Origin: Terebella lapidaria | Taxonomy: Eukaryota; Annelida; Polychaeta; Terebellida; Terebellidae | Direction: 5' to 3' | Length of the DNA: 64,000 nucleotides | Assembly (NCBI GenBank): GCA_949152475.1 | Contig: OX424560.1 | Coordinates: forward strand, 23,499,106-23,563,105 | Shown here: one piece after another, positions 5,359-63,871 of the stretch | Position numbering within the stretch: position 1 is the first letter of the stretch | Layout of the letters: each line of letters opens with the position of its first letter | Made by a program: the position numbers and the translations under genes | The notes under the pieces: generated by a model | What the model was told of the DNA's origin: nothing | Seen by the model: only the letters and a program-made list of their open reading frames with translations | The model's database searches: none

Positions 5359-5801
5359 CTTGTCCCCAAGGGTAATAGGCAGATCGATGATGCCGTGGAT
5401 ACGAATGCGGTTGTCTCCCGCTCCGTAGAGCTTGTACGGTCCGGATCCCGCAACTCAAGGTTGCGGAGCGCGGGCTCCTTCCTGAACGTTCCTGCGGCAA
5501 CGAGGGTCACCTCCAAACCAGAGTCTACGAGGAACCGGACCGGCTCCCGTCCGAATGACAGGGGCAGGTACCAGCAGGGGTCCCTCACCAGCGCGCAGGT
5601 AGGGCGATACCGTTCGCACGCGCTGGGCTCATCTACGGAGTCCTCACCATCCGCCTCAGCCGCGGAGGAGCTAGACTGATCCCCAAGGACTACTTCCGGA
5701 GAAGTCATATCAACTTGAGGTTCGTCCTGCCCATCAGCGGGTGGGGCGGCATCTTTTGCCACGTAACAACTATCCCCGGACGTAGTGTTGGTCGCCACCA
5801 C
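5349..5801 (-). CDS. Aspartic protease segment of retroelement 1
   Basis: This 150-residue frame contains the retropepsin-like motif FLVDSGLEVTLV with the active-site DSG. It lies between the gag frame (overlap with 5770-7716) and the RT frame (overlap with 3337-5358), the usual Ty3/gypsy position. Expression by frameshifting or read-through is known for the family. Copies of the same segment recur at 2842-3294 and 336-788 because of the tandem duplication. Confidence 0.65.
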   Translation of the reverse strand: MVATNTTSGDSCYVAKDAAPPADGQDEPQVDMTSPEVVLGDQSSSSAAEADGEDSVDEPSACERYRPTCALVRDPCWYLPLSFGREPVRFLVDSGLEVTLVAAGTFRKEPALRNLELRDPDRTSSTERETTAFVSTASSICLLPLGTRCI

Positions 5802-8603: not shown

Positions 8604-9189
8604 TGTCACGTATCAGCAACAGGAAAACAAACACATTGTATATTAATGAACTTTAATCACACTCAAAACATCAGATACACACACATTCATGCACACAGGG
8701 AAACAGTTGAAGATATGAGTCCGCGATACACAATCGGCCGGCGTGCGGCTCGGCACGTAATCACAGTTCCAGTTTCATACACACACGCGATTCCGCTTGT
8801 TACACACGCGCGATTCCGCTTGTTTACAAATGTCCACAAAGATCACCGAATTCCGTTAACTCGGCAAGATGTCATATCCTCGGTGATTCCGGCGTAAGGT
8901 CCATCCAAAAATATGTTATAGTTTCCAAATATAATTCATCACAAATGTCCAAATAGCTTCCAGAAATATATAGCAATCCGATTTAGCAGTCCATGACTTG
9001 CCGTCTGCGCGGTCGAAGTCTCTCTCTCTAGCTCTCGGGCAGGCGGTGAAGTTTTATCCGCCCAACGCGGAATCCAGCAGCTCACACACTCAGGCACACA
9101 AAAAACATCAAAAGAAAAATTCTCGGCCGGGAAAGTTTTCTGGCCGGCTCGCGGGCCAAACACTCGCAGCTAATCACATATGCATCACA
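8604..9189 (-). repeat. 3' LTR of retroelement 2
   Basis: On the minus strand it starts TGTGATGCATATG and ends CGTGACA. It matches 14202-14787 over its whole length with one difference noticed. Confidence 0.92.
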
Positions 9190-9199
9190 CCTCCCCACC
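9190..9199 (-). other. Polypurine tract of retroelement 2
   Basis: On the minus strand GGTGGGGAGG directly abuts the start of the 3' LTR. This is the position and composition expected for the plus-strand primer of reverse transcription. Confidence 0.65.
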
Positions 9200-9292
9200 T
9201 AACGAAAAAAGTTGGAACAACTTTTTACCAAACTCCAAAAACTCTAAAAATTACAGGAGAAATATCATCATCGACACATACAAAAAAACCCA

Positions 9293-12200
9293 CTAAACAC
9301 GAGACAATGCATCAGCACACACATTATCAACACCTCGGATGTGTCTTACATCAAGGTTATATTCCTGCAAGAGCAGACTCCAATGTAACAACCTGCGATT
9401 CTTGTTCTTAAGTCTACTCAAAAATGTCAATGGATTATGATCGGTGTAAACAAGTACAGGATGATGAGGCGACGAAACATAGACATCAAAATGTTGTAAG
9501 GCAAGTATAAGAGCTAATGTTTCTTTCTCAATGGTTGAGTAATTTTTCTGATGAACATCAAACTTCTTGGAAAAGTAACAGACAGGATGTTCAACATTAT
9601 CTTTGTCAGCCTGCAACAACACTGCACCAGCACCATAATCACTGGCATCAACAGCAAGACGAAATGGAAGACCAAAATCGGGTGCTTTAAGAACAGGATT
9701 TGTACATAATATTGCCTTCACTCTCTCAAAGGCTTGTTGACATGCAGCTGACCAAACAAACTTTGCTTTCTTTTTCAGTAAGGCTGTTAGCGGTAACGCG
9801 ATGTCCGAAAAGTTTCTACAGAACTTCCTGTAGTACCCCGCCATGCCAAGGAATCTTCTCAAACTCCGTAAGTTTGTTGGAACAGAATAATGCATGATAC
9901 TCTGGATCTTCGCATCAATGGGTCGAATCTGGCCGTGACCCACAACATGACCAAGGTAAGTCACCTTCGCTTGACAAAAGTCACTCTTAGACAGATTCAC
10001 TGTAAGGTTGGCTTCTCTGAGCCGTTCAAACATTTTACACAATCGAGACAAGTGTTCTGGCCATGTGTCACTATACACAATAATGTCGTCTACATAAGTT
10101 TCGACACCTTCAAGGCCTCTGATACATTCATTCATCATTCTCTGGAATGTGGCTTGAGAGTTTTTCATGCCAAATGGCATTACACGATACTGGAACAAAC
10201 CATTCGGTGTCACAAACGCTGAAATCTCCTTCGCCCGTTCTGTCAATGGAACACACCAATAACCTTTTAGTAAATCACACTTAGTTATGTATCGGGCTTT
10301 CCCAATACGATCAATGCAATCTTCCATTCTAGGGATGGGATAAGAATCAGTCTTGGTTAACTGGTTAACTTTACGGTAGTCTGTGCAAAACCGTATTGAG
10401 CCATCTGGTTTAGGAACCATAACACAAGGTGAAGACCAACAACTTTGGCTTGGCTCAATGATGCCATTTTCTAACATGTAGGCTACTTCTTTCTGCATGA
10501 CCTCAGCTTTATAAGGACTCAGCCTGTACGGATGTTGTTTCACTGGGTCAGCATTTCCAACATCAACATCATGGTAAGTAAAAGTAGTCATTTTAGGAAC
10601 GTCAGGAAACAAAGAATCATACGACTTTATGACTCTGGAAAGTTCTTGTCTTTCTTCAATCGGTAAGTGGGCTAATTTCTCATCCAACGTAGACAAAATC
10701 TGAGAATTTGACAATTTCACACCAATGTTAGTTTTACCCATGAATTCCTCACCAAATCTATCTTCACCCAAAGGTGGACCTTTTGTCTGGACGATGTACA
10801 CTTCTTGGCCTGTATTCCTGTCAAAATATGGCTTCAACATATTAACATGGCACAACTGTGTTGGCTTCCTCCGGTCAGGCGTTTTCACCACATAGTTAAG
10901 TTCACTGACTTTTCTGACCACTTCATATGGGCCGTGGTAACGTGCTTGAAGAGGATTACCAACTATAGGCAACAACACCAACACCTTTTGTCCAATTCGA
11001 AATTTACGATGGACTGCATCCTGGTCATAATAACCCTTCATTTTTCTTTGTGCTGACTTCAAATTTTCTTGGGCCAACTCACATGCCCTAGTCAACCTTT
11101 CTCGAAAGTTAGACACATAGTCAAGCAAACTCATCGGTTCACCATTCTCTTGCAACCAGTTTTCCTTCATGAGTTTCAGTGGTCCGCGAACAGTGTGACC
11201 GAACACTAACTCAAAAGGACTGAATCCTAACGACTCCTGGACGGCCTCTCTCGCTGCAAACAACAACAAACAGATACCTTCGTCCCAATCCTTCTCATTC
11301 TCATAACAATAGGTACGGATCATATTCTTCAGGGTGGAGTGAAATCTTTCGAGAGCACCCTGTGACTCTGGGTGATATGCACTAGATCTTATCTGTTTTG
11401 CACCCATTTGACAAACTAGCTGCTGAAACAGCCCTGACATAAAATTTGAACCCTGATCTGATTGAATTTCGGAAGGCAAACCTACTAACGTGAAAAACTT
11501 GATGAGAGCCTTGGCTACTGTCCTTGATGAAATGTTACGAAGAGGTATGGCCTCTGGAAACCGTGTGGACGCACACATGACCGTCAGTAAGTACTGATTC
11601 CCAGACCTAGATTTTGGCAGTGGGCCAACGCAATCTATGATCACCCGACTGATAGGCTCCTGGAATGCTGGAATGGGCTGTAATGGGGCCACTGGAATTT
11701 TCTGGTTAGGTTTTCCTACCATCTGACAGGTATGGCAGGTCTTGCAATAATCTGCTACATCCTTTCGGATTTTAGGCCAATAGAAATGTCTAGTAATTCT
11801 GTAGTAAGTTTTGTTTATACCAAGATGTCCAGCTAATGGCAGAGTGTGAGCTAATCTCAACACTTCCGACCGGTACACTTCCGGAACTACAATTTGCTGT
11901 ACAACCGACCAATCATCTGAGGCAGGGACATCAGTGGGTCGCCACTTCCTCATTAAGACCTTGTTCTTGATAAAGTAACCCGTCGGAACCTTATCCAACT
12001 CGTCATCTGACAACACTGAATCAAACAAAGGGGCCAAACTTGGATCCTCCTTTTGTTTTTCCACAAGACTATGTCTCGACAATGACATGTCTACATCACC
12101 AGAATCAGTAACACTAGAGAAATTCTCAATGTTCATGAACGTTTGAGACAAATCAACGTTAGTGTCATCCACATTTTTGTCATCATCATCAGCCATTTTC

Positions 12201-14005
12201 TTGGCTTGAGCTCGGGTGACTGCGCAAGAGGGAAACACGTCTGGAATCTCCTCTCCAATTTTCTCTACTTCAGGCATTGTCACTGGCTCAGACGACATCC
12301 TGGGCTCAGGGATCACTTTTCCCCCGGCCAAATCATTTCCTAACAATAAGGATATGCCTGTTGCAGGCAGAGTGGGCAATATCCCCACTACTACACTCCC
12401 AGATACTAAGTCCGAAACTAGATTCACACCGTGGAGTGGAACATCAACAAATCCACTTTCAACACCACGGACAATAACTAACTCATCAGTGGATGAGTTG
12501 GAATCAAAAGGTAAAGTACTGGCCAAGAGCAAGGACTGTGTCGCTCCTGTATCACGCAAAATCTTTATTGGTACTTTCCCAGATGAGTCGTCCTCCAATG
12601 ACACGAAGCCATCTGAGACAAACGGTTTGTACTCATCTCTGATATCATTGCTCTTTGCAACAAAATGATCAGTAATCTCACTATGTACTGGACTAGTGAA
12701 ACCCATGTTGCCATGGCCACTACTGACCAAACCATCAGTCTTCACTTCAGAAGTTTCTCTACTTTCATTTTTTCTAGCCCAGCAATCAGATATGACATGT
12801 CCTGGCTTCTTACAGTAGTAACATGTCGGACCACCCGACCTCGGAGCACCTCTACCCCAACTACTGAACTGACGATAACCACGTCCTTGGGAATGAGAAC
12901 CTCGTGAACTAGGATTGTGAGAAACTGTGCTAGCCTTTTTGTCTGCACGATCACCGTGATCATCCGCAGCAGGAGACTGATCAGCTGGAACAGCCCCTGG
13001 ACTTTTGTCACTTGGACCAGGCTTGTGAGTACTGAATGACTTTTGTTTGTGATTGTTACGATGCCTGTGAGTTAGTGCATAATCATCAGCGAAGGTGGCC
13101 AATTCATGAAGATCATCAATCTTTTTCTCATCAAGGTAAGTTTTTAAGTCATCATTAACACACCTCTTAAATTCTTCAATGAGAATTGTTTGTCTTAACT
13201 TTTCAAAATCCGAATCAATATCTTTAGAATTGCACCATCTTTCAAAGAACACCTCTTTCTGTCGAGCAAATTCAACGTAAGTTTCATTGTCTTGTTTCCT
13301 GTATTTTCTGAATTTTTGTCTGTATGCCTCAGGAACCAATTCATACGCTTTGAGAATGGCTGCTTTGACACATTGATAATCAGTACAATCGGCCACTGAA
13401 AGTGCAGCGTAGGCCTCCTGGGCTCTACCTTTCAACACTGTCTGCAACAACATGGGCCACATTTTTACGGGCCAGTTCAAATTTTTGGCAACCTTCTCAA
13501 AGTGTGAAAAGTACCTGTCAATTTCAGATTCGTTGAAAGGGGGTACAAGGCGCACATGCTTAGTCAAATCGAACTGATCCCTTCTGGACTCAGCTTCAGC
13601 AAGCTTAATCTCTAATTCTTTTAAACGAGTTTCTGCATTTATTTTTTCTTGCTCTGTCTGCGCTTGTAATTCCCTTTCACGAATTTCTGTTTTTGTTTGG
13701 AGTTCTCTTTCTTGCATTTGTATTTGTGCATGTATTTCCATTTGTTTCAGTTTGATCTGTGTTTCCATCTCAAGTTGTGTCTGAGAGATATCAAGGGGAT
13801 CAGGAGGTAAGTGCTCAAACACATCCTCAGGCAAATCATCATTGTCCACCAAATAATCAACAACAAGCCGACGTAAATCAGACTTGCGCATAGATTGTTT
13901 TCCTTCTAGGTTTAACGACTTGCAAACTTCCAACAATTCAACTTTCTTGAATGATAATAAGACCTCAAGGCTTGGTGCCCGTAGAAAAGTTTCTGCTGCT
14001 GCCAT
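9293..14005 (-). CDS. Gag-Pol polyprotein of retroelement 2 (integrase before RT)
   Basis: The frame is open from 14164. The methionine at 14005 (MAAAETFLRAPSLEVL) is the likelier start and gives 1570 residues. In order: a charged coiled-coil N-terminus, a SCAN/gag-like helical region, a CCHC knuckle CYYCKKPGHVISDC (about 12786-12830), protease DTGATQSLL (about 12540-12560), integrase HHCC zinc finger (about 11715-11860) and core (about 11200-11690), reverse transcriptase with YVDDIIVY (about 10085-10100), and RNase H with DASDYGAGAVLL (about 9625-9650). The domain order is the notable feature. It is a mobile-element gene, not a host gene. Confidence 0.88.
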   Translation of the reverse strand: MAAAETFLRAPSLEVLLSFKKVELLEVCKSLNLEGKQSMRKSDLRRLVVDYLVDNDDLPEDVFEHLPPDPLDISQTQLEMETQIKLKQMEIHAQIQMQERELQTKTEIRERELQAQTEQEKINAETRLKELEIKLAEAESRRDQFDLTKHVRLVPPFNESEIDRYFSHFEKVAKNLNWPVKMWPMLLQTVLKGRAQEAYAALSVADCTDYQCVKAAILKAYELVPEAYRQKFRKYRKQDNETYVEFARQKEVFFERWCNSKDIDSDFEKLRQTILIEEFKRCVNDDLKTYLDEKKIDDLHELATFADDYALTHRHRNNHKQKSFSTHKPGPSDKSPGAVPADQSPAADDHGDRADKKASTVSHNPSSRGSHSQGRGYRQFSSWGRGAPRSGGPTCYYCKKPGHVISDCWARKNESRETSEVKTDGLVSSGHGNMGFTSPVHSEITDHFVAKSNDIRDEYKPFVSDGFVSLEDDSSGKVPIKILRDTGATQSLLLASTLPFDSNSSTDELVIVRGVESGFVDVPLHGVNLVSDLVSGSVVVGILPTLPATGISLLLGNDLAGGKVIPEPRMSSEPVTMPEVEKIGEEIPDVFPSCAVTRAQAKKMADDDDKNVDDTNVDLSQTFMNIENFSSVTDSGDVDMSLSRHSLVEKQKEDPSLAPLFDSVLSDDELDKVPTGYFIKNKVLMRKWRPTDVPASDDWSVVQQIVVPEVYRSEVLRLAHTLPLAGHLGINKTYYRITRHFYWPKIRKDVADYCKTCHTCQMVGKPNQKIPVAPLQPIPAFQEPISRVIIDCVGPLPKSRSGNQYLLTVMCASTRFPEAIPLRNISSRTVAKALIKFFTLVGLPSEIQSDQGSNFMSGLFQQLVCQMGAKQIRSSAYHPESQGALERFHSTLKNMIRTYCYENEKDWDEGICLLLFAAREAVQESLGFSPFELVFGHTVRGPLKLMKENWLQENGEPMSLLDYVSNFRERLTRACELAQENLKSAQRKMKGYYDQDAVHRKFRIGQKVLVLLPIVGNPLQARYHGPYEVVRKVSELNYVVKTPDRRKPTQLCHVNMLKPYFDRNTGQEVYIVQTKGPPLGEDRFGEEFMGKTNIGVKLSNSQILSTLDEKLAHLPIEERQELSRVIKSYDSLFPDVPKMTTFTYHDVDVGNADPVKQHPYRLSPYKAEVMQKEVAYMLENGIIEPSQSCWSSPCVMVPKPDGSIRFCTDYRKVNQLTKTDSYPIPRMEDCIDRIGKARYITKCDLLKGYWCVPLTERAKEISAFVTPNGLFQYRVMPFGMKNSQATFQRMMNECIRGLEGVETYVDDIIVYSDTWPEHLSRLCKMFERLREANLTVNLSKSDFCQAKVTYLGHVVGHGQIRPIDAKIQSIMHYSVPTNLRSLRRFLGMAGYYRKFCRNFSDIALPLTALLKKKAKFVWSAACQQAFERVKAILCTNPVLKAPDFGLPFRLAVDASDYGAGAVLLQADKDNVEHPVCYFSKKFDVHQKNYSTIEKETLALILALQHFDVYVSSPHHPVLVYTDHNPLTFLSRLKNKNRRLLHWSLLLQEYNLDVRHIRGVDNVCADALSRV

Positions 14006-14176
14006 TGTGATAACGTTTAACAGACGCCAGTGTGTTAATGTTAAATGGCCAATGTTTCTATTGCAGATGCGACACCCGTAGGCGCGTGTGCAGTCAGAAT
14101 GCACCCATGACCGAGAAAAAAAAAAAATCACCAAACAGAATACAACCGACAAACAAGAAACCAACGACAGATCGTT

Positions 14177-14194
14177 CCCGGACGCGAGCCCCCA
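14177..14194 (-). other. Primer-binding site of retroelement 2
   Basis: On the minus strand the sequence TGGGGGCTCGCGTCCGGG follows the 5' LTR after a 7-base spacer. It begins with TGG as expected for pairing to a tRNA 3' CCA end. The exact tRNA was not established. Confidence 0.6.
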
Positions 14195-14201
14195 ATTTTC
14201 C

Positions 14202-14787
14202 TGTCACGTATCAGCAACAGGAAAACAAACACATTGTATATTAATGAACTTTAATCACACTCAAAACATCAGATACACACACATTCATGCACACAGGGAA
14301 ACAGTTGAAGATATGAGTCCGCGATACACAATCGGCCGGCGTGCGGCTCGGCACGTAATCACAGTTCCAGTTTCATACACACACGCGATTCCGCTTGTTA
14401 CACACGCGCGATTCCGCTTGTTTACAAATGTCCACAAAGATCACCGAATTCCGTTAACTCGGCAAGATGTCATATCCTCGGTGATTCCGGCGTAAGGTCC
14501 ATCCAAAAATATGTTATAGTTTCCAAATATAATTCATCACAAATGTCCAAATAGCTTCCAGAAATATATAGCAATCCGATTTAGCAGTCCATGACTTGCC
14601 GTCCGCGCGGTCGAAGTCTCTCTCTCTAGCTCTCGGGCAGGCGGTGAAGTTTTATCCGCCCAACGCGGAATCCAGCAGCTCACACACTCAGGCACACAAA
14701 AAACATCAAAAGAAAAATTCTCGGCCGGGAAAGTTTTCTGGCCGGCTCGCGGGCCAAACACTCGCAGCTAATCACATATGCATCACA
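14202..14787 (-). repeat. 5' LTR of retroelement 2
   Basis: This is the 586-bp partner of 8604-9189, ending seven bases before the primer-binding site. The TG...CA ends are canonical. Confidence 0.92.
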
Positions 14788-47212: not shown

Positions 47213-50200
47213 TTAAAGCGAGCATAACTTCTCGGCAATCTGTGTGGCAACTACGATCAACTCCGCCTCGTTCGGCAAGTAATACGAGTTTGCATCCCGA
47301 TCAGCCAATCCGCGCACTTCAGCAGTATTGACGTCGTTTCCGATTCCTACGGCGATGATGCCCACGCCCTCCCCATGCGCACGCGTCGCGTCCGCCTCCG
47401 ACATCGTATTTTCCCTCTCCAAGTTGGAATAGCCGTCCGTCAAGAAGACCACCGTGTTACTCTGTCCAAGTCGGTCTCCGTTACCCACTGTAAAGAATTC
47501 GCTCCGCAGCAGGCGCAGAGCAGCGGCCGAGTTGGTCCCGTGGATTGACAGGTCCCTGGTGAAGCCGAGGTTGTTAAGGAATGATCGCAGGGACATGTGC
47601 CTGTCCAGGGGGATCGCCACGCGTGCGGTGTCCTGGTAGAGTATGACCCCAGCGCGCATGCCCGGCGGGTTGAACGACATGCGCTCCGCGATAGCGTAGA
47701 CGAGGTCTTGGGCAAGGTCGAACATCTCTACGCTACCAGAGGCGTCCACCACGAAAGCGATGTCGCCAGTGTTTGAAGGACAGTCTGAAATACGGAAATT
47801 ATCGAGCTAACATGACAGATAAATCGATGAACTCGACTCCAACAAAATCATAAATGGGCGACTTTTATTTCTATGAACATCTATACACTGAACGCAGTTT
47901 TTGAAAAATATTTCGAGAATTTGAAGTCATACTGAGTTCGCAGTTGGGTCCGGATCGGCTGGTCACACAGCTGCACCAGCTGTCGTGGATCAGATCCGTG
48001 CACTGGCCGAATCTGCTACAGGCGGTAATCTCCGGACACTGGTTGGTTCCTGGAATAGTTAATTTGTGAGTTACCATTTTGACCTTAGTCTGAAAATTGG
48101 TTAGAAAAGATTTCTCAGCTCCAGATCTCTGCTCGAACTTTTAACTCAGCACAGTACAACAGTACAACTGCTAACTCATGGATCTATCTACGAGAGATGA
48201 AATAACTTGATATTTGGTAAGTGGCTTATACTGCAATGAATAAATCTGCGACTAACCATCACAAACGGCGTCGAGAATGGTACTGACGACTCCAAGTAGA
48301 TCCCCGTACATATCGACATTGACGATGTTTCGACTGTGTGGGCGGCTGGCGATACCTTCCAGCTCCAAGCTAGTGGCATCGTTCTCCACACTCCCCACCA
48401 CGATGTGAATGCCCTGCTCGCGAGTGGCCACCGCCTCGGGCAGTGTCTGGTCCACCTTCTCGTTAGCCTTCCCGTCCGTGACAGCGAGGAGCAGGTCCTG
48501 GATTCCAGCTCGGTTCCCGGGCCCGCCGAAGAGGTTCTCTCGCGCCACGCGGAGTCCGTCAGCGATATTCGTGCGTCCGCCGTAGTATGGTAGCCTCCTC
48601 ATGGCATGCTTGATGTCTTCCTTGCAGAGGAACTCGCCAATTTGGAACTGGACAGCCGTGCGGTCCGTCCCTGTGTTGTCATCCCAGTCGAAGGTCACTA
48701 GGCCCACTCGGGTCTTCTCGGCACGGATCTCGAGGTGGTCCACGATGGACGCGAGGAAGGGGATGACGTCATCATGGAAGCGGTCCTCCCGCACACTGCC
48801 AGAGACGTCCACGAGGATGCCGATGTCTAGGACGCCCTCACAGGCTAAGAGAAGATACTCGGACATAGATAACGACGTGGGATTTTATACGATTACATCC
48901 CAAATTAAGCGTCTTAATTTAGAAATGACTTCATATTGAAAACAAAAACCTTGAAATTTTATTAAATTCGCCACATTTCTAGCACACAAAAGCAGCAGCT
49001 TTCAATGCAAAATCCAAATTTTCACATGAAATGTGATTCACTCTTTGCAAGGACCGTACCTAAAGTGCAGTTGACGCCCGTCCAGTCGGAGTCACACAAG
49101 CACTCGTAGCTGTTGATGTTGTCCACACATACTCCACCGTTCTCACACGGATTCGGGTTACAGTTGTCCTCGGCTGTAAGGGAGTCATTCATAGGTTACT
49201 ACTAGTAATAAGGTTGACAAACTTGTACAGGTAGCCTATACTTTTCACATATTCAATCAGAGTTGATTTATCATCAGATTTGCATGTATTACATGATGCA
49301 GACATAACGCATCTTTAGGCGAGGTATGTTACGTGATATGTCAAATATGTAATTTTGGCTTGCAGTCAGGGCCGGATTAGCCACCAAGCCAAATAAGCCA
49401 TGGCTTAGGGCCCCCATAGTTTTGGGGGCCCCATGAGGCCCCCAAAATCACGCGCTTGTTCCTCGAACGCGCTGCAAAATCGGGCTTCACGATGCATTGC
49501 GTGCAGTGGGCCATGGCACATACTGGATACACAGGTGTTTGGGCTGGACGTGTGCAGTTTTGGGGCCCCACAGCTGTGAAGATCCAACTTGGGGGCCCAG
49601 GACCAGCACTCTTTGGGCGCCACATTTTTGAGTCCTGACAAATCCAAGGCTCGCACACTTCCGGGGCATTTAGTGTGGGCCCCTGCATTTTTGGGGCCCC
49701 GCAACGCAATTCCATGCCCCTACAATCCCTGGGGCCCCAAAGTTCCAGGGAAGCTGCAGTTTTATTCCCCCCCCCCCCCCATTCAGTTTCACGGCCTCCA
49801 CAGATTTAGGAAAACTCTGGCATATGGTGATAATAGAAAAACAGGCTTTCCTGTGTTAAGAAATAGATATCTAGATTAATGTCCTGCCTACAAGGGGACA
49901 CGCTCAAGGTAACAGAGCGTTGCTTGGAAACAACGCACATGGAACGTGTCTCTATAACGTAATTACATGAACAGCCCCAAATATATACCTCAGAAAGCTC
50001 CTACAAACTTCAATTCAGCAAAATTTTCTCGGGGGCCTTACGGCACCCCCCGAACCCCCAGACCACAAGGTTCCCTCGCTTCGCTCGGTCACATAGCCTA
50101 CCTTATATATAAAAGGCCCCCACTACTAATTTGGCTTAGGGCCTCATTACATCCTAATCCGGCCCTGCTTGCAGTTGTTGCTGTTCGCCAGTTGTCGCTG

Positions 50201-53200
50201 ATTGTTTGTTGTCTTCGGGCTCGCATATGGGAAAGTGTTTCTACAGAATAAACTCTGATCAAAGTTGACGCCCGTCCAGTCGGAGTCACACACGCACTCG
50301 TAGCTGTTGATGTTGTCCACACAGACACGAAACATGGTGGCAGCGGTGGGATAAACTGTTTTTGGAATCTAGCCCTAACTTTGTGTTTCCGGTGAGGACT
50401 ATGCGTTTTTTTTTATGCCCTGTGGTAAAAATCGGATGCTGAAGAATTTTCTGGATGTATGGAACGCCGATGTCTGACAGGTCTAATATTGTGACATTCT
50501 GATTCTCTGACTACACTGGTGATAAAAATGCCTGTTGCTGCTGCTCCACTGTCGGTACATGGCATCAAAATCCTGAAAGGGGATATTTCCCGGATTATGA
50601 CATCACACCCATCATCAGCTGATTGCATGATGCTCCCTGATTGGCTGATTCCAGTGGTGGCTTTGTAGCATGGCAAAACTGCACCATGATGAAAATGTAA
50701 ACAAGCAGCTGTCAAGAGACAAAGTATGGAAATAACTCAAAATTAAGGGACATAAATCGTTGGAAACAACTGAGAGGGATAGAAAATGATACACAGTGTG
50801 TATTTCATGCATTCAAAACATGTTTTGTTCTGAAATAAGTTCACAAATCCTGACCCACTGTGACAGGGTGTCAGGCAAAACCGTTGTCGGCTCAGGAAGG
50901 AACCAACACTTAACTCTGTTATTGGGCTGAACTAAACTATGCTATCATAACGAACCTGAATGGGCAAACACGTGAATACAGAGTGGCACTGTTTCTGCAT
51001 ACACTCGGTGATCAAGCTCTAGAAATCTACAATCGTTCCAATTTTGCCACACATGACAATGCACGAACTGTCGATGAGTTTGCTGTGGGCAAAATAAATG
51101 AATCATATGAGAGATTCATCTTCAACAGCCGTGATCAACACGAGGGTGAAAGTTTCGAGACTTTCCTCGCCACAATACGATCTCTAATCAAAACCTTCAA
51201 CTATTGTCAGAACTGTGTAGAGTCCATTCTACGTGATTTGATATGGTATTAGAGTGTCCACTACACAAGAAGCCCTGCTTCGAGGAGAAACACTGACTCT
51301 TGAAAAATGCATATCAATATGTAAAGCTGCTGAAAATGCTACAGTGCAGGCACAGGTTCTCAGACGTGCCTCGGTGAACAAAATTGGAACAAACTCCTCT
51401 GCCAAACAAGAGAATCGCTCTCAAAATGCACCAAATGAGAGATTCACTCCCAAACAAAAGCCTACGAGGAAGTGTAAGTTATGTGGCTATCAACACCCAA
51501 TGGAGAAGAAAAGCTGTCCTTTGGGTAAAACATGCTCTGTGTGTCGTGAGCAGAATTACTTTGCAACCAAGTGCCCCAAGAAATATCATCGACACACAAA
51601 CACTAACCACGTGGAGACTCTGTCGTCATCTGACGATGAGTGAGTCAATTCTGTGAATGGCTCACAACACTCTGGACATTTAGATATCAAGTGATATCAA
51701 GTCACATGCATGTGGGAAAGCATGATGTCATCTTCCAGATTGATACAGGAGCTTCTGTGAATATTCTTCCATCAGAGTATGCTACGTACATCACCCCGAT
51801 GTAATCGCCCTGATCAAAATGTGGAATCACACAGAACTGACACCTCTAGGGGTATGACACCTCTAAGAACTATGTTGAATTTCTAGTGGTCAAGAGCATC
51901 TCACACCTCTCATTGGACTTTGGGCTGCTGAACAGATGCGACTAATCTCCGTCAATGACCACAATATCGACCGAATTGCCTCAATATCTGTGGAGGACAA
52001 ATATAATGACGTGTTCCAACCTGGCCTAGGGACACTACCTGGTCGAGTACATCTTCGGACGGATGAGAAAGTGCATCCAGTGATAATGCCAATGTGCAGA
52101 ATTCCAATCTCAATGCGGGAACCTCTCAAAGTTGAGATAGACAGGATGACTGAAGAGGGCATAATAACTCCAGTTCAGCAGCCAACACCTTGGTTGAGTC
52201 AACTCGTGGTCACTCTTAAGAAGTCTGGTTGACTTCGTGTGTGTATAGACCCTAGAGAACTAAAAAAAAAGCCCTTCAGAGGGAACACTACATCATGCCA
52301 GTGTTAGAAGACACACTGCATGAGTTGAGAGAATCTCGGGTATTCTCAAAAGCCGATCTAGCTTTGGGCTACTGGCATATACAACTTGACGAAGAGTCCA
52401 GTCTGCTTACAACTTTCCAAACCTGTTTTGGTCGCTACAGATGGCTTCGACTCCCTTTCGGAAATAATGTGTCCATAGAAATCTTCCAGAAGAAGCTGCT
52501 GGAAGCCTTGGAAGAACTTCCAGGAGTCGTGTGTATAGCTGATGATGTGGTTATACACGGAAAAACTACTGAATATCATGACCAAAACCTACAAAAATTC
52601 CTGGACAGATGTCAAGAACTAGGTATCAAACTCAACAAGGAATTGCGAATATCTGCAATAACATTCATGGGTCACCAAATCTCCAAAGATGGTCTACAAT
52701 CTGACCCTGAAAAAGTCAAGGCCGTCAGAAATATGTCTTCTCCAAAGAATCTCGAGGAACTACGCCGGTGTCTGCTGTCCGGTATTTCGACCATAGAGAT
52801 GAACTATCTGTTCAAGATGCCGTGATAGTATGTGAGGAACTGATAGTGATTCCCACTTCTCTTCGGCAAGACGTCAAGCACAAGATCCACGCTGGACATC
52901 TCGGAATAAATGCCTGTCTCAGAAGAGCGAGAGACATTGTTTTCTGGCCTGGTATGTCAGCTTAGATTCGCCAGTACATCGAGACTTGTGATATCTGTGC
53001 GACGCCTGAGAATCTAATCATGCACCCTGTACCAAACAGGCCATGGGAAAGAGTTGGGACGGACATGTGCACCATAGCAGATGGAGACTGTTTGGTAACA
53101 GTGGATTACCTGAGCAGCTACTTCGAGGTGGACCCGAACACATCGTCGGAAATGGTGATTTCCAAGCTGAAGCAACACTTCAAGGCATCCAGCCAAGCAG

Positions 53201-56200
53201 GGGGTTTCACACACCAAACTAGTTCCCCTGGAAATAGTAGAGCATATGGTGCTGCAAAAGCTGCAGTGAAAACTGCTAAGAGGATGATGAAGAAATGTCA
53301 TGCTGCAAAGGAAGATCCATATCTTGGGTTTCCAAACTGGAGAAACACCCCGACGGAAGGCCTGGAAACCAGCCCTGCTCAGAGGCTACTGGGTAGAAAA
53401 CTTAAGACTCCCTCCCGGTGACCACAACTGTAGTCAGTGGGAGAAAACGTGTCCTGGGTTATTGTTTGACAAGCACATAGGGGAGGCACGGAAAAATATG
53501 AGACATCTGCATGTGGGAGACACAGTGCGCATGCAACCCATCAGACCTCATCAATAAGCAGGCCTGAGTAACCGCACAACTGAAGAACCGGACATACGAA
53601 GTTGCCACTGACCAAGGAGGCCGGTACAGCAGAAACAGACAGTTTCTGCTGAAGTCATCTGACTCAAGACGACCTATCCTCCATGAACCTAGAGTGTACT
53701 TTCCTGCTCCATCTACAGCTCCCGAGATAGCACCTGTTCCTCAGGTCACAGGAACTTCACCACATCAGCATGCCGTACCCAACTCGCCAGATGGACCTCC
53801 TGAGAGAACAGCAGTAGATGACCTCTATCGAACGAGGTCTGGTCGCTGCGTGAGGCCAGTGCCTCGTCTTGACCTGTGACTTTTTACTTTATCGTAATGG
53901 TGATTATCATGTCATGTGTATATTCACATTTTGTTTGCTGCTGTAATAGTGTACATACTAAATACATGTACATGGGTATCAAAAAATCCTCCTAACCGTT
54001 GCAGATTTCCTGGATTATCTGCTCCACATAGAGACAGGACTCGTCGTGCATCCAGCGGTTTTCATCATCTGGATCCGAAGCTATCCCGTCCAGCTCCATG
54101 TCACTGAACTTGCTCTTGATATCGACCCCCACCCCCAGGATCGTGATGTCCGCCTCGTGGGCACGCGCGGCACCTTCAAAGGCCTTGACCTGGTCGGGGA
54201 AAAGTGGGGACTCAATGTCACTACCAGCTATAGGGGCTCCTCACCACGCCAAAAAATATCGCAAACCCACCCAAAATTCGTACGTACATGATAGTTAGGA
54301 CCAAGGCTTTATATAAACAAAGGTTAAATGATTTGATTCGATTTTAATGAACATTTTGAATTCAATCAAGAATTAGATAAATTCCTAATGTAGTTCAAAG
54401 AGACCGAGATCGAGTCCCTCACGCGGTCGGATGAGTGGCCGTCACTCGCGTACGCCGCGACCTTGCGCACGTCTCCATCTGTGATGTCATTGAACGTCTC
54501 CAATCGGGTCATCATGAGCGCAGCCCCCGCATTAGTCGAGCCGCCCATGTACGGGTAACTGGTGGCGTCGACCACCTGCTTAGATGTGTTGTACGCCAAG
54601 AGGCCGAACCGCTCGTACGTGGTATCGTTGAAGTTTATCAGAGCCACGCGGTGGTTGGCGTCGATGTTGAGGCTGCGGGCTAGGAGTTTGTAGCAATTTT
54701 GTATGCTGTAGTAGTCATCAGCGTGAATACTGCCAGAGGCGTCGATTATGAAGGCGACATCACTGGTAGTGGGACAATAGGGTGGTCCTTATAATAGGGT
54801 ATTTTTTCAAAGTGTGATTTTCAAAGCTCTCACCCCTCAAAGTTGTTTGACTATCATTAACAACTCATTTGATGAAATATGAGTGTTTTATTACGACTTT
54901 TAGAGGTAGCTCAACACATTTGAAATATTGGTCAATGACCATTTGAGGACTCGCAGCGCAGCCATGCACGGCGAACATACAGGACGATGATGTAATATCA
55001 ATATCATCATAAATATGTGGAGGATGAAGATTTCTTTATGGCAGTGTGGTTTTCAAGGAGATACACATACATCCAAGAAATTATCTAAATAGCAACATAA
55101 CTACTGGTAGCATTGCAGCATCAGATTTAGAGGACCAGCAGCGACCATGGTAGAGATACATACATGTATGAAGTACACGACTATGATCATGGCATGCTGT
55201 CCTCGTAATATAGTGGAACAAGACTTGATTACTTCTGGCATCAAGGAGATATTCATGCAACAAGAAAACTAACTTATCTACTCAGTGACAGACAAAAACT
55301 GGGGAGATACTACTTTACTAGTAGTCATAAACTCTGACATATGTCTATTGTCTATCACTGTTCAACATTCGAATCCTTTCAACAGAGTGGACTATTTGCT
55401 GTTTGGGAACCGACGCCGATGATTCTGAACAACTTGAAGCAGGAATTACTTCTACTCCTAATCTTTTGTGATATAAGTATTGTTCTTCATTGAGAGCACG
55501 AATTAGTTATGCTGTGTCGTTATTGACATTCAGTCCTTTCACCACATTGAGTGCGTCTTGAAATCCTCTCTTGTGCCATGATTTGAACAGATTTCTTGAG
55601 TTTCTTGAGTTTAAGCACTTAAGCACAGATTTCTTGAGTTTGGGTAAACAAAGTCTGTCAGCATCTTTTGTATTGCCTCCAGGCTTTCTGTGTCTTCTTT
55701 TGACTTTCCCCATATCACATTTTGTAACAATTGGAACAACGGGGTCGAAGAAAGTCAAACCAAGCAGCTCTTCATTGACATACCACAAGTGTCTAGCAAA
55801 TTTGCTCAAAGCTGTCTTGGATATGGATTGGTTGATCTTTTCCAAAACCCCTTACATGTTGGAGGAGACTGAGGTGACTTTGGGATGCGGAAATGGCATC
55901 AGGAGCAGAAAACCACGCCTGAACATAGATTTTTGTTATGAACACAGAAACATAGAGGATGCCTCCCGCCTCACGTGATGTGAGCTTGAACTGGTCTCTG
56001 AACATGTATTTCTGGAGTGCACAGATAGCTTGCCTTCCATCGGCTATAGTGTATGACACCTAGTTCCAGTAATTGCACACCACAGGCAGGATTTTCACCA
56101 ACAAGTATTATAATGAGCTCCAGCATCATTCTCCCTATCGTCATTCCTGGATTGGGACTGGAGCTGGGTCAGGTCAAAACCAGAGCATTGTTTGACATCA

Positions 56201-59200
56201 GCTAGGGACCTTTTCATTTTTGTCGTCATCAGCAGCAGTTTGGAAATTTGAATGAGCGATGAATCCCCAGCGCCGCGGAAATCTTTTGAATATCAGCACA
56301 TCTGGTCCTGAAGTTGGGTTCATGCAAGTGTCAAATGCACTTGCTAGAAACAGCTTCAGCAGGTGTTGATGGTATACCAAATACAGAAAATTGCGACTGA
56401 GCTTTCCCTTAAACAAAATACAAGAACCGCTTATTTGAACTGAGTTTGTGGACGTGCTGTCGGAGCACATTGCTTTGACGTGACCACCTTCCTGCCAAAT
56501 TTCTAACGGGTTCAAGACAGCGGTAGCCCGAGCTCCACAGGTAGCCACCTTCCCAACAGCTGGTAGATGTCCACTCCTGACATAATTGTGCACTGTTGAA
56601 TGGTATATATTAGATTCTCCACCGAAGAAATCACCAAGGAAAAACAAACTACTGGTAAACTAAGCAATGTATGGAGAAAAACCATATCTTGAACAAGAAC
56701 AAATGTAAATACTAGTAAATGTATATTAATTCAGATGTGCCATTGGTCAGACTATTGGTATGTACTACATGTCACAGACAGACAACCAAATTACCAACTT
56801 ATCAACATCAAAATACAAAAAACCTCCATAAAAACAAATTCAGCATCTATTTACTATTCACATTACCTCATAGTTGTCTTTTGTAGGTCCCCGTTTATCA
56901 ACCAGGTAGTATCCTACATAGAACTTCTCATTACAAGGTCAGCGCAGAGGAAAACAAGTCAGATAAAAACAACAACACTGCAGTATATCCATATTTTTGT
57001 ATTACAGTCTAATATGAAATGAATGGTTCAATGGTAGTCCCGAAATAGAGTCAGGAGTGACAATCACACCAATAATAGTGTGGTCTCGTAATGCCCAAAA
57101 ATCAGCGAAATATGATTAAACAGGCCAAATTTGAAAGCCCTTGAGCTACCTCTAAATATCCAAGTATTTTCCTGTAATTTTGTCTAGCATGTTTTATTAA
57201 CTATTCCAACACATTGGTAGGGTGAGAGTGTGGAAAATAAAAAGTTGACAAATAAGGACCACCCTATGGGACAAGCTGTGGAACAGCGGACATACACGAT
57301 GATATGCAAATATGCTGTAATGATGGGATGCGATCAACACGATGGAGGTCGTCTGCTCATATGTACTCACCATATTGGCAGTTTTCGCCAGCAAAGCCAG
57401 GCGGACAAATACAATAGTAAGTGTTGATCTCGTCCTGGCATGTTCCTCCATTCCGACATGGGTCCAGTAGACAATTGTTCTCATCTGAAAATGATAATAA
57501 CTTATCATGTAAATGACTTATCTCCTCCTATGCAAATTGATAACATTTGCAACGTTTTATTAACGTTGTGTTCGTTCAACACACGTTCTATTAGCTGCAT
57601 TATGATTTCATTGTTGAAATAATTCATCATGACAACCATCGTTTGGAACCTATCCTGGTCACGTCTACCAGAAGTAGCAGACCCTCTCTCACTCACCATT
57701 ACAAGCAGCAGCGCGGACTCCAGCAAACGCCTCCTCGAACATGGAGTCGAACGACCCGGCTCTGAATGTGTTCTTATCGTCGGGATCGGAAGCTATCTCG
57801 TACACCTCACGCCAGTAGACCCAGTCCGTCACGGCCACTACCAGGATAGTGATGCCGTCGAGGCGGGCCAGGCGGGCCTCCTCCAGGGCTGACGGCCCGA
57901 TGTTTGACCCACCGTCTGTTGAAAGAGGAGTAAAGTGCAATAATCATGATTACTCAGCTTGTACTGCAATATTTGGCTCTGATGCCAATAGTGAAACGAT
58001 CCTGATTCTAGAAACTTACCATTAGATTCTAGAAAAATACCATTAGTAATACATGATTTCTTGAAAAATTAGTAATACATGATTTCTTGAGGGCTGCATA
58101 TACATGTACCAATATATATAGCCCTGCCTCTAGGAGAGAAACTACTAAAATGGAGGACATTTATTCATTATTGAAGCTGCAGAGCTAGTATTTGCACGTG
58201 TATGTAATGGTTTGAGTATCGCTAAAGCCTACCAGTAAAGATGATGATGACGTTGCGTTCCTCTGGTCTGTCTCCCTCCGCTTCTACAAACATCTCCGTC
58301 CGCGCCCGGTGGATTGCATCCCCCGTGTTAGTCTTACCCCCAGTGTACACTACCCGCTGTCATGGAAACCAGAGTATGACTGTTCAGGTTTTCCTAATTG
58401 TGTGCAACAAAGCGCCAAAAGTAATGCTGTCTTTGATATAACTTTTTGGGGATCTATATGGTCAATGATTAGCTCTATCATTCGCTGACAACGTTCTGAG
58501 GAGGTCAGTTTCCATTCTGGAAAATCTGTCGCTTCCAGACTTTTCGATGGGATCATTATGGTAATAGTTGAGAAGCTTTACCGTTCGCTGGCAAGGGCCA
58601 GGATCAGTTTTCTGTTACTCTCTGAAGTACTCAAATATCGACCATACCGTCAAAGCTAGAAGCAGTTCTGTTCTGCTTAAGTAGTCGTTCAGATGCCACT
58701 GAATGTCACCCACGTCCCCAAATTTCATGAGTCCCAGTCTAGCGGCTCCCGTGTCTATGGGCATCGTCTCAATCAGCCGCTCCACAAAGTACTTCTCGTG
58801 AGCAAAGCTCTCCTTCCCCACACTGCCCGAGGTGTCCATGATCACCACCCAGTCACCCGGGCTCGAGCAATTGGCTGGTAAATGGAGGAAGCCATTAGAA
58901 TCATTATTAGCTCATAATTACATTTAATTTCTGTAGAAATAGCCCTATCTTGAATGTAACACTTCTATTTTAAACAACGATTTTCAAATATTTGAAGTTA
59001 TATGTGAAAATATCACTGGGATCAACGATGCTCAATCGCTCATGTGCCAAAAAGCAGAAGAATTGGCTGCACATAGATTTCTTTAATTAATTATTATTCT
59101 GTAAAATGACTTGAGGACATTTCTACTCTACGAAACCAATCCGGATGATAAAAATAAAATGCTTCTATAAAAGACACTTGTGTTGAACGTATACATGACT

Positions 59201-62200
59201 ACTCACGGCATACGTCGGCGATGAGCGGATCAAGGACCTCGAGGAGCCCATCGAAGTTGTCAATTTTGAGCAGACGTGCGGGGTCATTTGTGATGTTCGT
59301 CAGCTCCTTCAAGTCGATTTCCTCGCCGACACCGACGGCAAACAGTTCTATCCCACTGTCCCGGGCCTCCTCCGCCTCCATTGGCGTCTGCAAGCGGTCC
59401 ACTTTTGACTGTCCATCAGTGATCAGGACTCCGACCTTAGGGGCGACTCTGTCCGTGTCTTGACGCGAGGCGAAGTAAAGTATATATGACAATTACATCT
59501 AATATACATGTATTCGAGAACTTGACACATAGTCCAGTGGCTCAGGGGGTGTATGTGTGCATGAGATGTCTCCTAAATCAGATTTCAGAAGTGTAATTTG
59601 GGGCTATTCAGGGAACATATTAATCAGGGTAGACATTTGGTACCCAGGCACTAAGCGAGAAAATTGACATTTTATACGGGTCCCCTCGACGTCATTTTTT
59701 TGTTGTTTTCGTGGCAAATTATTTAGAGGGGTATAGTTAGTATTTCAGCCATTGCATAGGATGCAATGGATCAATCATCATATGTCACATATCAAATGAA
59801 AGGTAATTGAATTATCTTTCAAATATTCGCTTATATGTCGGTTGCAATAAAAATTCATCATTCTGTAACTAGTTAAGAATAACTTTTGTCGCCAACTCTG
59901 AACGAACTCTGCAGAAGACCCCTATGGTGGCAGGGTTGAGTTATCCCCTGAAACTTCTCAAATATTCGTCACCCACTAGTATATTTTTTCCACTGGGGCT
60001 GGATTGGAAAAAGTCAATAAAGGAACAATATAGCCACAAACTTCATGGTAACATTTTCTAAACATGTGTAACCCTGAATTGACATTTCACGTTTTCATTT
60101 AAATTATTTAAGGGGGTATACTTGGTTTCTGGGCCACTACATCTGTTTCAATACTTTGATAACGCTATGTTATACGGCGCATAACAGGGAATTAAATTAT
60201 CTGTTAAATGATGTGTTCATATTTCAGTTGCTATAAAAATTCAGCTCTCTATAACTAGCTAAATGTAGTTTTTGTCTACATCTCTGAAGAAACTCTGTCG
60301 AAGCCCCTCATGGTACATCGGTTGGGTTTTGCTTTAATATGTCGCTCACCTAAATTCTTATTTGTGTGCACTGAGCTTACTTAGTTATCAGGAAAGGCAT
60401 GACAGAAGCAATATAGTCCGAAATTCGATGGTAACACTTTGTACCAATGGATAATTCTGAATTGACTTTTCACAATTAGTACTCAATGGGCTATACTTTG
60501 TTTCTGTGCCACGCAAGTTCTGAATAAATGCATTATTTAATGCGAAATTGTGGAATACCATTAGAAAGGCAATCGATTCAACTATCAAATGCTGTGTTAT
60601 TACTTCCTCTGCAATCTTTCTGTAACCAACTATGCATAGTTTTTTCATCATCTCTGTTGGTGGTATTCTTTTGTGGCCTTCAGAGAGGATTCTGACATAT
60701 ATCATTGTGGACACCATTTGATTCGTTGATATATCAAATCTATATAAATCATATGCTTTTTTACACGCAGTATGATGAAACCAACCTAGATATAAAATAC
60801 TAAACAGTGAAATAGTGCATTCGTTAACATGTTAAGACATAGGTCACTGCTAGTCTATTGGTTAGTTCTTCTTGTAGCTTTCGGATAGAGTTTTGATTTA
60901 TAGTTGCAAAATACACGACAGGAGAACGCATTCTCTAGGCTTGACTGTCTGATAATAGGACCTTTTCACAAGAGTTCACGATTTTTGGGGCAGCTGTTGG
61001 ATTGTTTTGTTCCTGCCGTAGTTGTATTGTCATAAGTGGAGGTCATCCGTTCCCTGTTTCAATACATTCACCAAATAAACTTATGCTTTAGTCACAACAA
61101 GAAGTGGGATATATCGAGAAGTGTCACCTACTAGTATTCCACCCTCTATTCACTAAGTTCTTTCAATCTAATCAATCAATCAATCAATCAATTTATTCAG
61201 AAATGTATGGAAAATGTACACTACAACGCTTTTATACAAATCAGTCAGATACAGTCCAAAGCAATGAAATTGATGCTTATTTTACACAATAATTTAATGA
61301 TTACGAGGTATTACAAACTTCGATAAACAGAAAAAAAAATTATATACATAAATACACATGTCCAAAACATATTACATATTCCCATTTTGATTGTATATTC
61401 ATGGTCTGGTCAATCTCGTGTGCGTCTCCCGCAGTCGTGACCATAGCCCGCCCACCCCGCCCGCTCCAAGAAGCCTAGCGAGGGTGGAACTCCCAATAAA
61501 CATAGGATAAGTACGTCTGTGTCTCATGAAAGATAACAATTAATGTCGTTCCTTTCCTGGTTGCATGCATGCTGAGGCGTGCTTCTGCTTCTACAATCTT
61601 TATATCCAGGTGACTGGATGAGGCGAAAGTTACACCAACATCTTGGAGAACACATCATCACTTTGCCTTCAGATCGACATCTAGTAGAGATGGTATTCAA
61701 TAGAGTAGGTGGCGTCAATCCTGAGCCCTGACAGTCTGCCCAGAATGGGAATGTCACCACCTATACCAACCATGGTAGAGAAGAAGCAGAAACGACACCA
61801 ATAGTTATACTGTCATCAAGCACATGGGTCCTTGTCCTGGGTCTTCTACTGGAAGCTGCTCCACTCTGATGCCTGGTTGCGAGCTGGAATACTTCACAAA
61901 AAGTTCACCACTCGATAATAACACTTCACAATCCTGGGGAAAACATCCTGAGCTATGTGGTTCAACCGGTAGCACAGCAAGGTTGGACCAAAACATTCAG
62001 CGATCAAGGCAGATACAGTACATCAATCATATCGGGAAAGAGGGGAACCAAAGGTAGTTGAATCTTTCCGATGCAAAAGCAGAAGATTTTTTGTTGAATG
62101 TCTTGAAATAGGGAAGAGTGTGTACAATTAAAAGGACGTAATTTTATGGTAATACCACTGCAGCAAAAGACAAAACAATCCAGCAGCTGCCACCAACTTC

Positions 62201-63871
62201 TTGGGAAACTCATGTCTACATACATGTATTACTATCATTATACGCAATTCATACACAAGTGCTACCATCAGAAGGCCAGCCAACAAATTGCGAACCATTG
62301 CACAAATTTTGTTATTTTGTATGTACATGTATATTTCAGTAGTTTTCCAGTAAATGGTTTCATCACAACAAAAATGTCTTATCGCCATAATGCAAGTGAA
62401 AGTATATGTGTTCTGGATATATTAGACAATCAATACCTCCCATTTGATATGCTGATTGCCAAAGATCAAGAAAGCAGTAATCAAGTTGACCTAATATAGA
62501 CATTTCAACACGTCATTTGATAGGCACATCAACCGCTTTTCTATTGTTATGTCACGTTTTCACATTAATTAATCGATTATTCAGATCTTATGAGGCATAG
62601 AAACCAAGTATAGCCCAATAGAAAATTGTGAAACCCCAATTCAGAGTTACTCATTGATACAAATTATTAGCCTTTTTGATGACTAGAAAACCTCATTGGA
62701 CACAATTCTGCCTCTAGGTGAGCGATATATCAAAGGAAAACTCAACTGATATACGATGCGGTTCTTCGACAGAGTTTCTTCAGTTGTAGACAACAGTTAC
62801 ATTCAACCAGTTATAAAGAGATGAATTTAAGTAAATAATTTAAGTGAAATCGTGAAATGTCTATTCAGAGTTACACATGTTTACAAAATGTTACCATGAA
62901 GTTTGTGGCTATATTGTTTCTTTTATTGACTTTTTCCAATCTAGAAGCCCCCAGTGGACAAAAGTATACTAGCGGGTGAAGAATATTTCCGAGATTTTAG
63001 GGGATAACTCAACCCTGCCACCATAGGGGTCTTCGGCAGAGTTTGTTCAGAGTTGCCCACAAAATTTATTTTTAACTAATTACAGATAGATGAATTTTCA
63101 TTGCAACCGCCAAAATTAGCATAGTTTTGGACAGACAATTCAAATACCTTTCATTTGAAATATGATATATGATGATTGATCTATTGAAACTCATGCAATG
63201 GACGAAAACCCAACTATAACCCTTTAAATAATTTGCGTGAAAACAGCAAAAAATGACTTCGGGGGGACCTGTATAAAATATCAATTTTCTAACTTAGTGC
63301 CGGGGTCCCAAATGTCTACCCTGATTAATATGTTCCCTGAATAGTCCCGAATAACATATCTGAAGTCAAATTTAGGGGACATCTCATGCACACATACACC
63401 CCCTGAGCCACTGGACTAACAACCAATATACAATAATATACGATATAATTATTTTGTGGTTCCCTCTGGTATTTACAGAGTGTGTTGTACCGTTTAAATT
63501 ACTAATATGTATGTACTATCAGAGAAGAAGACATAAGAACAACAATATTCTATTTTGAAGGTACGTACTAAAGTACATATCAGTCCTCAACAGTCGCAGT
63601 GCTGCGGCAATGTTTGTGTCACCTCCAGGTGGTACATCGTTCAGTTCGTCGATCTTGTTCAAGATGTCCGCTTTGATATCAAACTCCGAGACGTTGAAGA
63701 GCATGTGAGCTTCGTTCTTGAAGTAAATCAAGCCGAAGTTGAGGAACTCAGCTCCGACTCTGAAGTTCCGCACGAAGGACTTGGAGAACTCAATGACGCG
63801 GTCCCAGTTCTCCGTGCCGCTGATGCTACCAGAGGCGTCGAGGACAAGGCCAACGTCCAAGAACTGGCACA
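47213..63871 (-). CDS. Secreted multi-VWA/EGF protein, gene VWA-3, 5' end outside window
   Basis: Visible coding exons in transcript order: 63569-63871, 59207-59458, 58648-58874, 58233-58356, 57697-57915, 57371-57484, a split exon (57268-57275 plus 54423-54776), 53997-54189, 49060-49173, 48257-48844, 47933-48049, 47213-47784. The modules are VWA, VWA, EGF, VWA, EGF, VWA, EGF, VWA: the same order as gene VWA-1, so only the signal-peptide exon should be missing. The MIDAS motifs are DASGS, DTSGS, DASGS, DVSGS and DASGS. The third EGF-like module ([13 protein letters not shown]) is atypical. The third VWA exon is interrupted near its 5' edge by a DNA transposon flanked by TGTCCC; without it the exon is 356 bp and in phase. 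Three other mobile elements sit in introns. The gene may therefore be damaged, or rescued by splicing. Confidence 0.78.
49069..49132 (-). repeat. Parent of the duplicated half EGF exon
   Basis: This 64-bp part of the EGF exon of gene VWA-3 (encoding [19 protein letters not shown]) matches 50263-50326 with two mismatches. Confidence 0.9.
49367..50167. mobile_element. Non-autonomous hAT-type element, 801 bp
   Basis: The terminal inverted repeat CAGGGCCGGATTAG (start) and CTAATCCGGCCCTG (end) is perfect over 14 bp. An exact 8-bp target duplication CTTGCAGT lies at 49359-49366 and 50168-50175. Both are diagnostic of the hAT superfamily. The interior is rich in GGGGCCCC-type words and has a poly-C run, but no transposase. 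It sits in an intron of gene VWA-3. Confidence 0.92.
50176..53990 (+). mobile_element. Old, broken Ty3/gypsy LTR-element relic in an intron
   Basis: The plus-strand relic lies in the intron between exons 53997-54189 and 49060-49173 of gene VWA-3, opposite to the gene. Recognisable parts in order: a primer-binding-site-like TGGTGGCAGCGGTGGGAT (50334-50351), gag with a cysteine-rich zinc-knuckle region (about 50983-51650), reverse transcriptase (about 51936-52790), integrase (about 52800-53420) and a C-terminal tail ending in a basic RPVPRLDL-type motif (about 53879). It is broken in several places and looks old. Its outer limits are uncertain because no LTR pair could be matched. Confidence 0.7.
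50263..50326 (-). pseudogene. Duplicated half of an EGF exon of gene VWA-3
   Basis: This 64-bp segment matches 49069-49132 with two mismatches. On the minus strand it still reads [19 protein letters not shown], but it lacks both ends of the EGF exon and its splice sites. It lies just before the primer-binding-site-like sequence of the LTR-element relic, 1.2 kb from its source. Confidence 0.85.
54777..57267 (-). mobile_element. 2.5-kb DNA transposon inserted in a coding exon of gene VWA-3
   Basis: The terminal inverted repeats ATAGGGTGGTCCTTAT (left) and ATAAGGACCACCCTAT (right) are perfect over 16 bp. They are flanked by a 6-bp target duplication GGGACA at 54771-54776 and 57268-57273. Inside, minus-strand frames at 55507-56647 resemble a transposase family seen in many invertebrate genomes, with motifs such as [21 protein letters not shown] and [16 protein letters not shown]. 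The frames are interrupted, so this copy is probably not autonomous. The superfamily was not assigned. The insertion point is eight bases into a VWA exon. Confidence 0.85.
55507..56647 (-). pseudogene. Degenerate transposase of the exon-inserted DNA transposon
   Basis: Frames at 56198-56647, 55793-56059 and 55507-55845 together look like one transposase. The first carries a possible catalytic aspartate region ([16 protein letters not shown]). The last contains [16 protein letters not shown] and ends VNNDTA at an in-frame stop, after which LIRALNEEQ continues the same frame. The NDxAERGxxLI pattern I recall for this family suggests the stop is a loss-of-function change. The family name is uncertain. 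Confidence 0.55.
59532..63416. mobile_element. 3.9-kb foldback-like element with long inverted arms
   Basis: The outer ends GTCCAGTGGCTCAGGGGGTG (left) and its complement (right) start long, diverged inverted arms of roughly 800-900 bp (59532-60400 and about 62520-63416). Both ends are flanked by TA, consistent with a TA target. Each arm contains imperfect tandem subrepeats of about 350 bp with phrases like AACTCTGCAGAAGACCCCTATGG changed to varying degrees. The centre (about 60800-62500) has only short frames, one cysteine-rich (61524-61760, minus). It lies in an intron of gene VWA-3 between exons 63569-63871 and 59207-59458. No transposase was recognised. Confidence 0.75.

Follow-up and report, generated by a model that had tools for sequence, protein, structure and literature searches.

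In the excerpts of the published descriptions cited here, P elements, among them Drosophila P (2.9 kb in total) and the zebrafish THAP9 transposon, make 8-bp target duplications and carry terminal repeats of 13-31 bp together with subterminal inverted repeats of 11-12 bp (PMC7776569). hAT elements are described with 8-bp duplications, terminal repeats of 5-27 bp and lengths of 2.5-5 kb (PMC2874221), and the ends of Ac/Ds with the sequence C/TAGGGATGAAA (PMC3260210). The duplications of IS3EU elements usually measure 6 bp (PMC10045372). For introners, the excerpted source reports that those of Aureococcus add 12 bp (PMC9860276). Here, we describe a DNA transposon that interrupts a coding exon of a VWA/EGF gene (gene A) in 64,000 nucleotides of the annelid Terebella lapidaria (assembly GCA_949152475.1, contig OX424560.1, positions 23,499,106 to 23,563,105; hereafter the window, numbered from its first letter). 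The insertion of a transposon into an exon is a known kind of event. The present locus is a good and clear example of it, with the transposon inside a coding exon, an empty site that can be read and paralogues adjacent. No description of this particular insertion was found among titles and abstract openings, in a partial coverage of the literature.

Structure, possible affinities and probable age of the transposon

The transposon is 2,489 bp long and sits on the minus strand within the VWA3a exon, nine bases into this exon and just behind its old acceptor (Table 1). The order on the minus strand is exon base 57275, TTGTCCCA, TAGGGTGGTCCTTAT, about 2.5 kb of element, ATAAGGACCACCCTA, TTGTCCCA and the remainder of the exon. 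Both the 8-bp target duplication and the 15-bp terminal inverted repeats are perfect. The element thus has the inverted ends within a direct target duplication that characterize cut-and-paste DNA transposons. Inside each end lies a perfect 16-bp subterminal inverted repeat, TTTAGAGGTAGCTCAA, which occupies bases 111-126 counted from one end of the element and 122-137 counted from the other; 300 shuffles gave no such match longer than 13 bases. Moreover, among 196 pairs of 12-bp inverted repeats lying 200-6000 bp apart within the window, only two have identical 8-bp outer flanks, namely this transposon and an element at 49367-50167. The anatomy of the insertion exceeds chance expectation. An earlier note, made from the sequence alone, had already recognized a DNA transposon within a VWA coding exon, and the repeats, duplication and flanks bear this out. 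The span then given, 54771-57275, has to be narrowed to 54778-57266 for the element proper, and the duplicated TGTCCC seen at that time is the inner part of the 8-bp TTGTCCCA. A blastn search with the element found no second copy in the window, the short matches being of at most 23 bases.

It appears highly improbable that the interruption stems from faulty assembly, or from a rare haplotype of a gene that is normally uninterrupted. An assembly fault could indeed account for tandem copies elsewhere in the window, three near-exact repeats of 2.5 kb at 1-7.5 kb, but perfect terminal repeats flanked by a perfect 8-bp duplication are what real transposition leaves. A rare allele would also be compatible with the truncation favored below.

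The ends resemble those of P and hAT elements as the cited excerpts describe them; the element is here placed in neither group, its broken remnant having given no informative transposase match. The likeness to P elements, drawn from the description of the ends, concerns the 8-bp duplication, the 15-bp terminal and 16-bp subterminal repeats and the length of 2.5 kb. The broken coding remnant gave no P-transposase or THAP match in Pfam and PDB searches. The 31-bp Drosophila P end may contain GGTGGTCC, as does the terminal repeat here; this likeness is given no weight. hAT elements share the 8-bp duplication and repeats of comparable size, and 2,489 bp corresponds to the lower edge of their size range. 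However, the end reads TAGGGTGGTCC, having only its first five bases in common with the excerpted Ac/Ds end, and no hAT or BED-finger match was found in the remnant with Pfam. IS3EU elements are alike in their TA..TA ends. An IS3EU element with a six-base duplication was considered and rejected, since with the ends TAGGG..CCCTA the duplication is of 8 bp, to be set against the usual 6 bp of the excerpted description.

The coding remnant lies on the host strand, is scattered over three frames and contains many stops. Its longest open stretch, 153 residues (56198-56659), is of a length found in 5 of 300 shuffles. The remnant is putatively transposase-like, judging from its position and from motifs. 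Some unnamed invertebrate transposase-like proteins carry motifs like HLWYLSEEL and FLLQVV. Nine open stretches were scanned with Pfam; among the seven that belong to the element, no match passed a curated cut-off, the weak ones being to HTH_17 (E 0.076) and DUF2545 (E 0.0062). Pfam found no family in the stitched remnant, nor in two element pieces of a further scan (one of them already scanned). One PDB search returned two matches at chance level (E 1.5 and 2) and another returned none. IMG/VR protein scans found no relatives. In the same database, the terminal repeat and a degenerate motif each retrieved six loci, among which tblastn of the stitched remnant found nothing better than E 0.32.

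The paired sites of the duplication (8), the terminal repeat (15) and the subterminal repeat (16) are identical at 39 of 39 positions. With a divergence of 4% in each copy after insertion, such identity would have a probability of 0.039, and with one of 6%, of 0.007. Identical paired repeats beside a coding part disrupted in every frame suggest that most of the decay predates the last jump. As the transposase gene was already broken, the element would then have been moved in trans, by the enzyme of another copy. The paired repeats need not, however, have started identical. We infer from these sequence comparisons that the insertion is probably fairly young.

Host gene and paralogues

Joining the flanks at the empty site gives CT TGT CCC ACT ACC AGT GAT, which restores the VWA reading in phase, as expected in the earlier note for removal of the element and one repeat, and leaves the EGF1-VWA3a reading open. 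In the visible part of gene A, exons were placed by eye and the frame was checked by script, the interrupted exon being entered through the acceptor in the terminal repeat. Together, the 12 exons so defined encode 1,063 residues in an uninterrupted frame whose sole stop is terminal, and no further disabling change was seen in them. Their phases are consistent with one another, and they code for five VWA and three EGF domains, as in a gene for a VWA/EGF extracellular protein; the start of the gene lies outside the window. VWA3a and EGF1 are supported by Pfam and the remaining domains by alignment and motif. The VWA3b exon, which contains an extra cysteine (SCLYV), is near its end shorter than in paralogue B.

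Paralogue B (41882-36449) has five VWA and three EGF domains in the same order as gene A, and its signal-like start suggests that the host protein is secreted. Residue identity between the two genes is 38-48%. A third paralogue, C, at about 28.4-35.4 kb, has VWA and EGF exons, apparently in the same order. In a tree of 15 VWA domains, the third domain of A groups with that of B (support 0.96), then with that of C (0.77). The gene A branch is longer than the gene B branch in all five VWA domains. Relaxed constraint on VWA3 of gene A was considered and rejected, its branch of 0.91 lying within the 0.76-1.08 of the other four VWA domains of the gene.

Table 1. Features of the interrupted exon, the transposon and the host gene (window coordinates)
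Feature	Position	Strand	Basis or remark
Gene A, as visible	47213..63871	-	12 exons, scripted frame check
EGF1 exon, donor GTGAGT, leaves phase 1	57371..57484	-	Pfam EGF 1.3e-10 and gene model
First base of VWA3a exon at old acceptor	57275..57275	-	Sequence reading, acceptor scoring
Target duplication TTGTCCCA, upstream copy in host sense	57267..57274	-	Flank reading
DNA transposon, 2,489 bp	54778..57266	-	Perfect 15-bp terminal repeats and 8-bp duplication
Terminal inverted repeat TAGGGTGGTCCTTAT	57252..57266	-	15 bp, perfect
AATAAA, begins 12 bases before read-through stop	57193..57198	-	Sequence reading
Subterminal inverted repeat TTTAGAGGTAGCTCAA	57141..57156	-	16 exact bases
Broken transposase-like coding remnant (putative)	55345..56659	-	Transposase label from position and motifs
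Subterminal inverted repeat, other end	54899..54914	-	16 exact bases
Terminal inverted repeat, other end ATAAGGACCACCCTA	54778..54792	-	Includes the AG that is in phase (exon could begin at 54787)
Target duplication TTGTCCCA, downstream copy in host sense	54770..54777	-	Flank reading
Remainder of VWA3a exon, donor GTGAGG (donor at 54422)	54423..54769	-	Pfam VWA 1.3e-14 on open stretch 54366-54788 and gene model
VWA3b exon, enters in phase 0	53997..54189	-	Gene model

Predicted effect on splicing and on the protein

The old acceptor, TTCCACAG followed by C, was correctly placed in the earlier note and is untouched by the insertion. Translation entering from it continues for 30 residues until it meets a stop (57186-57184) inside the element and close to the AATAAA, so that the truncation route proposed in that note should hold. 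An AG in the inner terminal repeat was also rightly said to be in phase: with 54787 as first exon base, the junction reads G, then GA CCA CCC TAT TGT CCC, a net gain of 9 nt by which Gly-Pro-Pro-Tyr replaces Ala.

The phase of the terminal-repeat AG says little by itself. At least one frame-keeping AG occurred in 1945 of 5000 dinucleotide-preserving shuffles of a 300-nt transposon end (39%) and in 990 of 1622 stretches of 300 nt from the minus strand of the window (61%). Because such AGs are this common, the phase match carries little weight and, taken alone, is no more than chance provides. From the old acceptor to the exon donor, 4 of 156 AGs keep the frame. The terminal-repeat site is the only one of these within the element; the other three lie inside the exon and would delete VWA sequence.

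The strength of the sites was estimated with two models. The first used 23 acceptors from genes A and B and excluded the old VWA3a site. It gives 6.67 to the old acceptor (97th percentile of 3483 AGs) and -0.84 to the terminal-repeat site (56th percentile). Leave-one-out scores of the 24 listed acceptors range from -6.26 to 11.25, a single one (B_VWA2b) falling below the terminal-repeat site. In the second model, B_VWA2b was dropped, its exon start being doubted, and seven gene C sites were added by eye, making 29 local acceptors. The terminal-repeat site then scores -2.01, below all 29 leave-one-out scores. Among 3476 AGs it stands at the 45th percentile, and among the 21 AGs between 54900 and 54423 it ranks 13th. 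The tract upstream of its AG has 8 pyrimidines in 17 positions, in agreement with the pyrimidine-poor tract remarked upon earlier; counts as low or lower occur in two of the 24 listed acceptors (8 and 5).

In view of a site that is both weak and of a kind that chance provides, the gene is more likely truncated than the element edited out. We infer, with somewhat better than even confidence, that truncation or strong loss of gene function is the main effect; on the sequence, a truncating or strongly hypomorphic insertion is likelier than a rescued one. According to this proposal, a cut-and-paste transposon that makes 8-bp target duplications landed just behind the acceptor of the VWA3a exon, probably mobilized by an enzyme from another copy since its own transposase gene was already broken. 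Splicing to the strong old acceptor would carry the reading 30 residues into the element before the stop. The transcript might end at the AATAAA of the element, giving a shorter VWA1-VWA2-EGF protein. Alternatively, it might be lost as a nonsense transcript. Exon skipping would lose the frame too, and the terminal-repeat AG would be an incidental weak site, any rescued product being minor at best. Compensation may come from an uninterrupted allele or from the neighboring paralogues. On present evidence, the insertion most probably represents a truncating or null allele, an ordinary outcome.

Three points weigh against this proposal. The 12 open exons of gene A are unexpected for a long-dead gene, the VWA3 branch is not unusually long, and both acceptor models are built on only 23-29 sites chosen by eye. 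An open frame and an ordinary branch are, however, predicted by a tolerated insertion and by a young one alike.

The tolerated insertion, in which the EGF1 donor at 57371 would splice mainly to 54787 and the element would join the intron, seems unlikely. The product would gain three residues in the linker ahead of the VWA domain. The phase, the open frame and branch just mentioned, and the position of this AG, alone among the frame-keeping ones in lying within the element, all fit such an outcome. There are also precedents for transposon-borne 3' splice sites that add residues, according to the excerpt cited for introners (PMC9860276). Against it stand the low rank and pyrimidine-poor tract of the site, the frequency with which a comparable AG is expected in such ends and the strong old acceptor, which is reached first. 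The tolerance suggested in the earlier note thus draws its support from phase only. As in introners, the 3' splice site would come from a transposon end, and bases left behind would encode extra residues. Introners occur in many copies, each spliced out as a separate intron; here the element would only lengthen an existing intron, a single copy is seen in the window, the acceptor is weak and the left end offers no fitting donor. If the terminal-repeat acceptor is used in RNA, the locus would be a compact natural test of an exonic insertion turning into intron.

Frame loss through other cryptic sites has also to be considered. In the second model, the exon AGs 54672 and 54762 score highest among the 21 near the donor, and both are out of frame. 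Use of a stronger exon AG such as these would give nonsense transcripts and a plain null, with no truncated product. The old acceptor scores similarly (5.59 vs. 6.98 and 4.52 for 54672 and 54762) and comes first, and we consider such an outcome improbable.

Two further routes were tried and rejected. Exon skipping does not keep the frame, since EGF1, leaving phase 1, would join VWA3b in phase 0. The other route would have the whole element serve as a separate intron. Nine GT sites lie between the old acceptor and 57100; seven precede the stop, and two of those (57272 and 57212) have a phase fitting the terminal-repeat acceptor. Both end in a T that would make TGA with the following GA.

A broader idea, which we hold with considerable doubt, follows from the inverted nature of the terminal repeats. 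Any copy of the family, in either orientation, would end in ATAAG followed after the AG by GACCACCCTA, bringing the same AG to its downstream border, and insertions immediately behind an acceptor could thereby become part of the upstream intron. If this were true, the terminal repeat would soften the damage, turning an exonic hit in an animal gene into a near-neutral intron extension with a few extra residues.

Other features of the window

Several other repeats were noticed in the window. The element at 49367-50167, in a gene A intron, is 801 bp long, with perfect 14-bp terminal repeats CAGGGCCGGATTAG and an 8-bp duplication CTTGCAGT. On its far side, at 50263-50326, 64 bp of the EGF2 exon (49069-49132) recur with 97% identity. 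An intron of gene A contains, on the plus strand, a retroelement remnant (50914-53418) with a reverse transcriptase match at 52256-52819 (E 2.8e-17). The first visible intron holds a large inverted repeat (59530-63418), whose arms match at 72-93% in blocks; it might be a foldback element or a pair of copies facing opposite ways. At 1-7500, in retroelement-like sequence, repeats are spaced by 2,506-2,507 bp, three copies being 100% identical over the 300 bases compared, which may reflect tandem amplification or an assembly fault. Finally, at 8604-14501, identical 300-base repeats 5,598 bp apart flank an open stretch of 1,636 residues (9296-14203, minus strand), and the whole looks like a young LTR retroelement.

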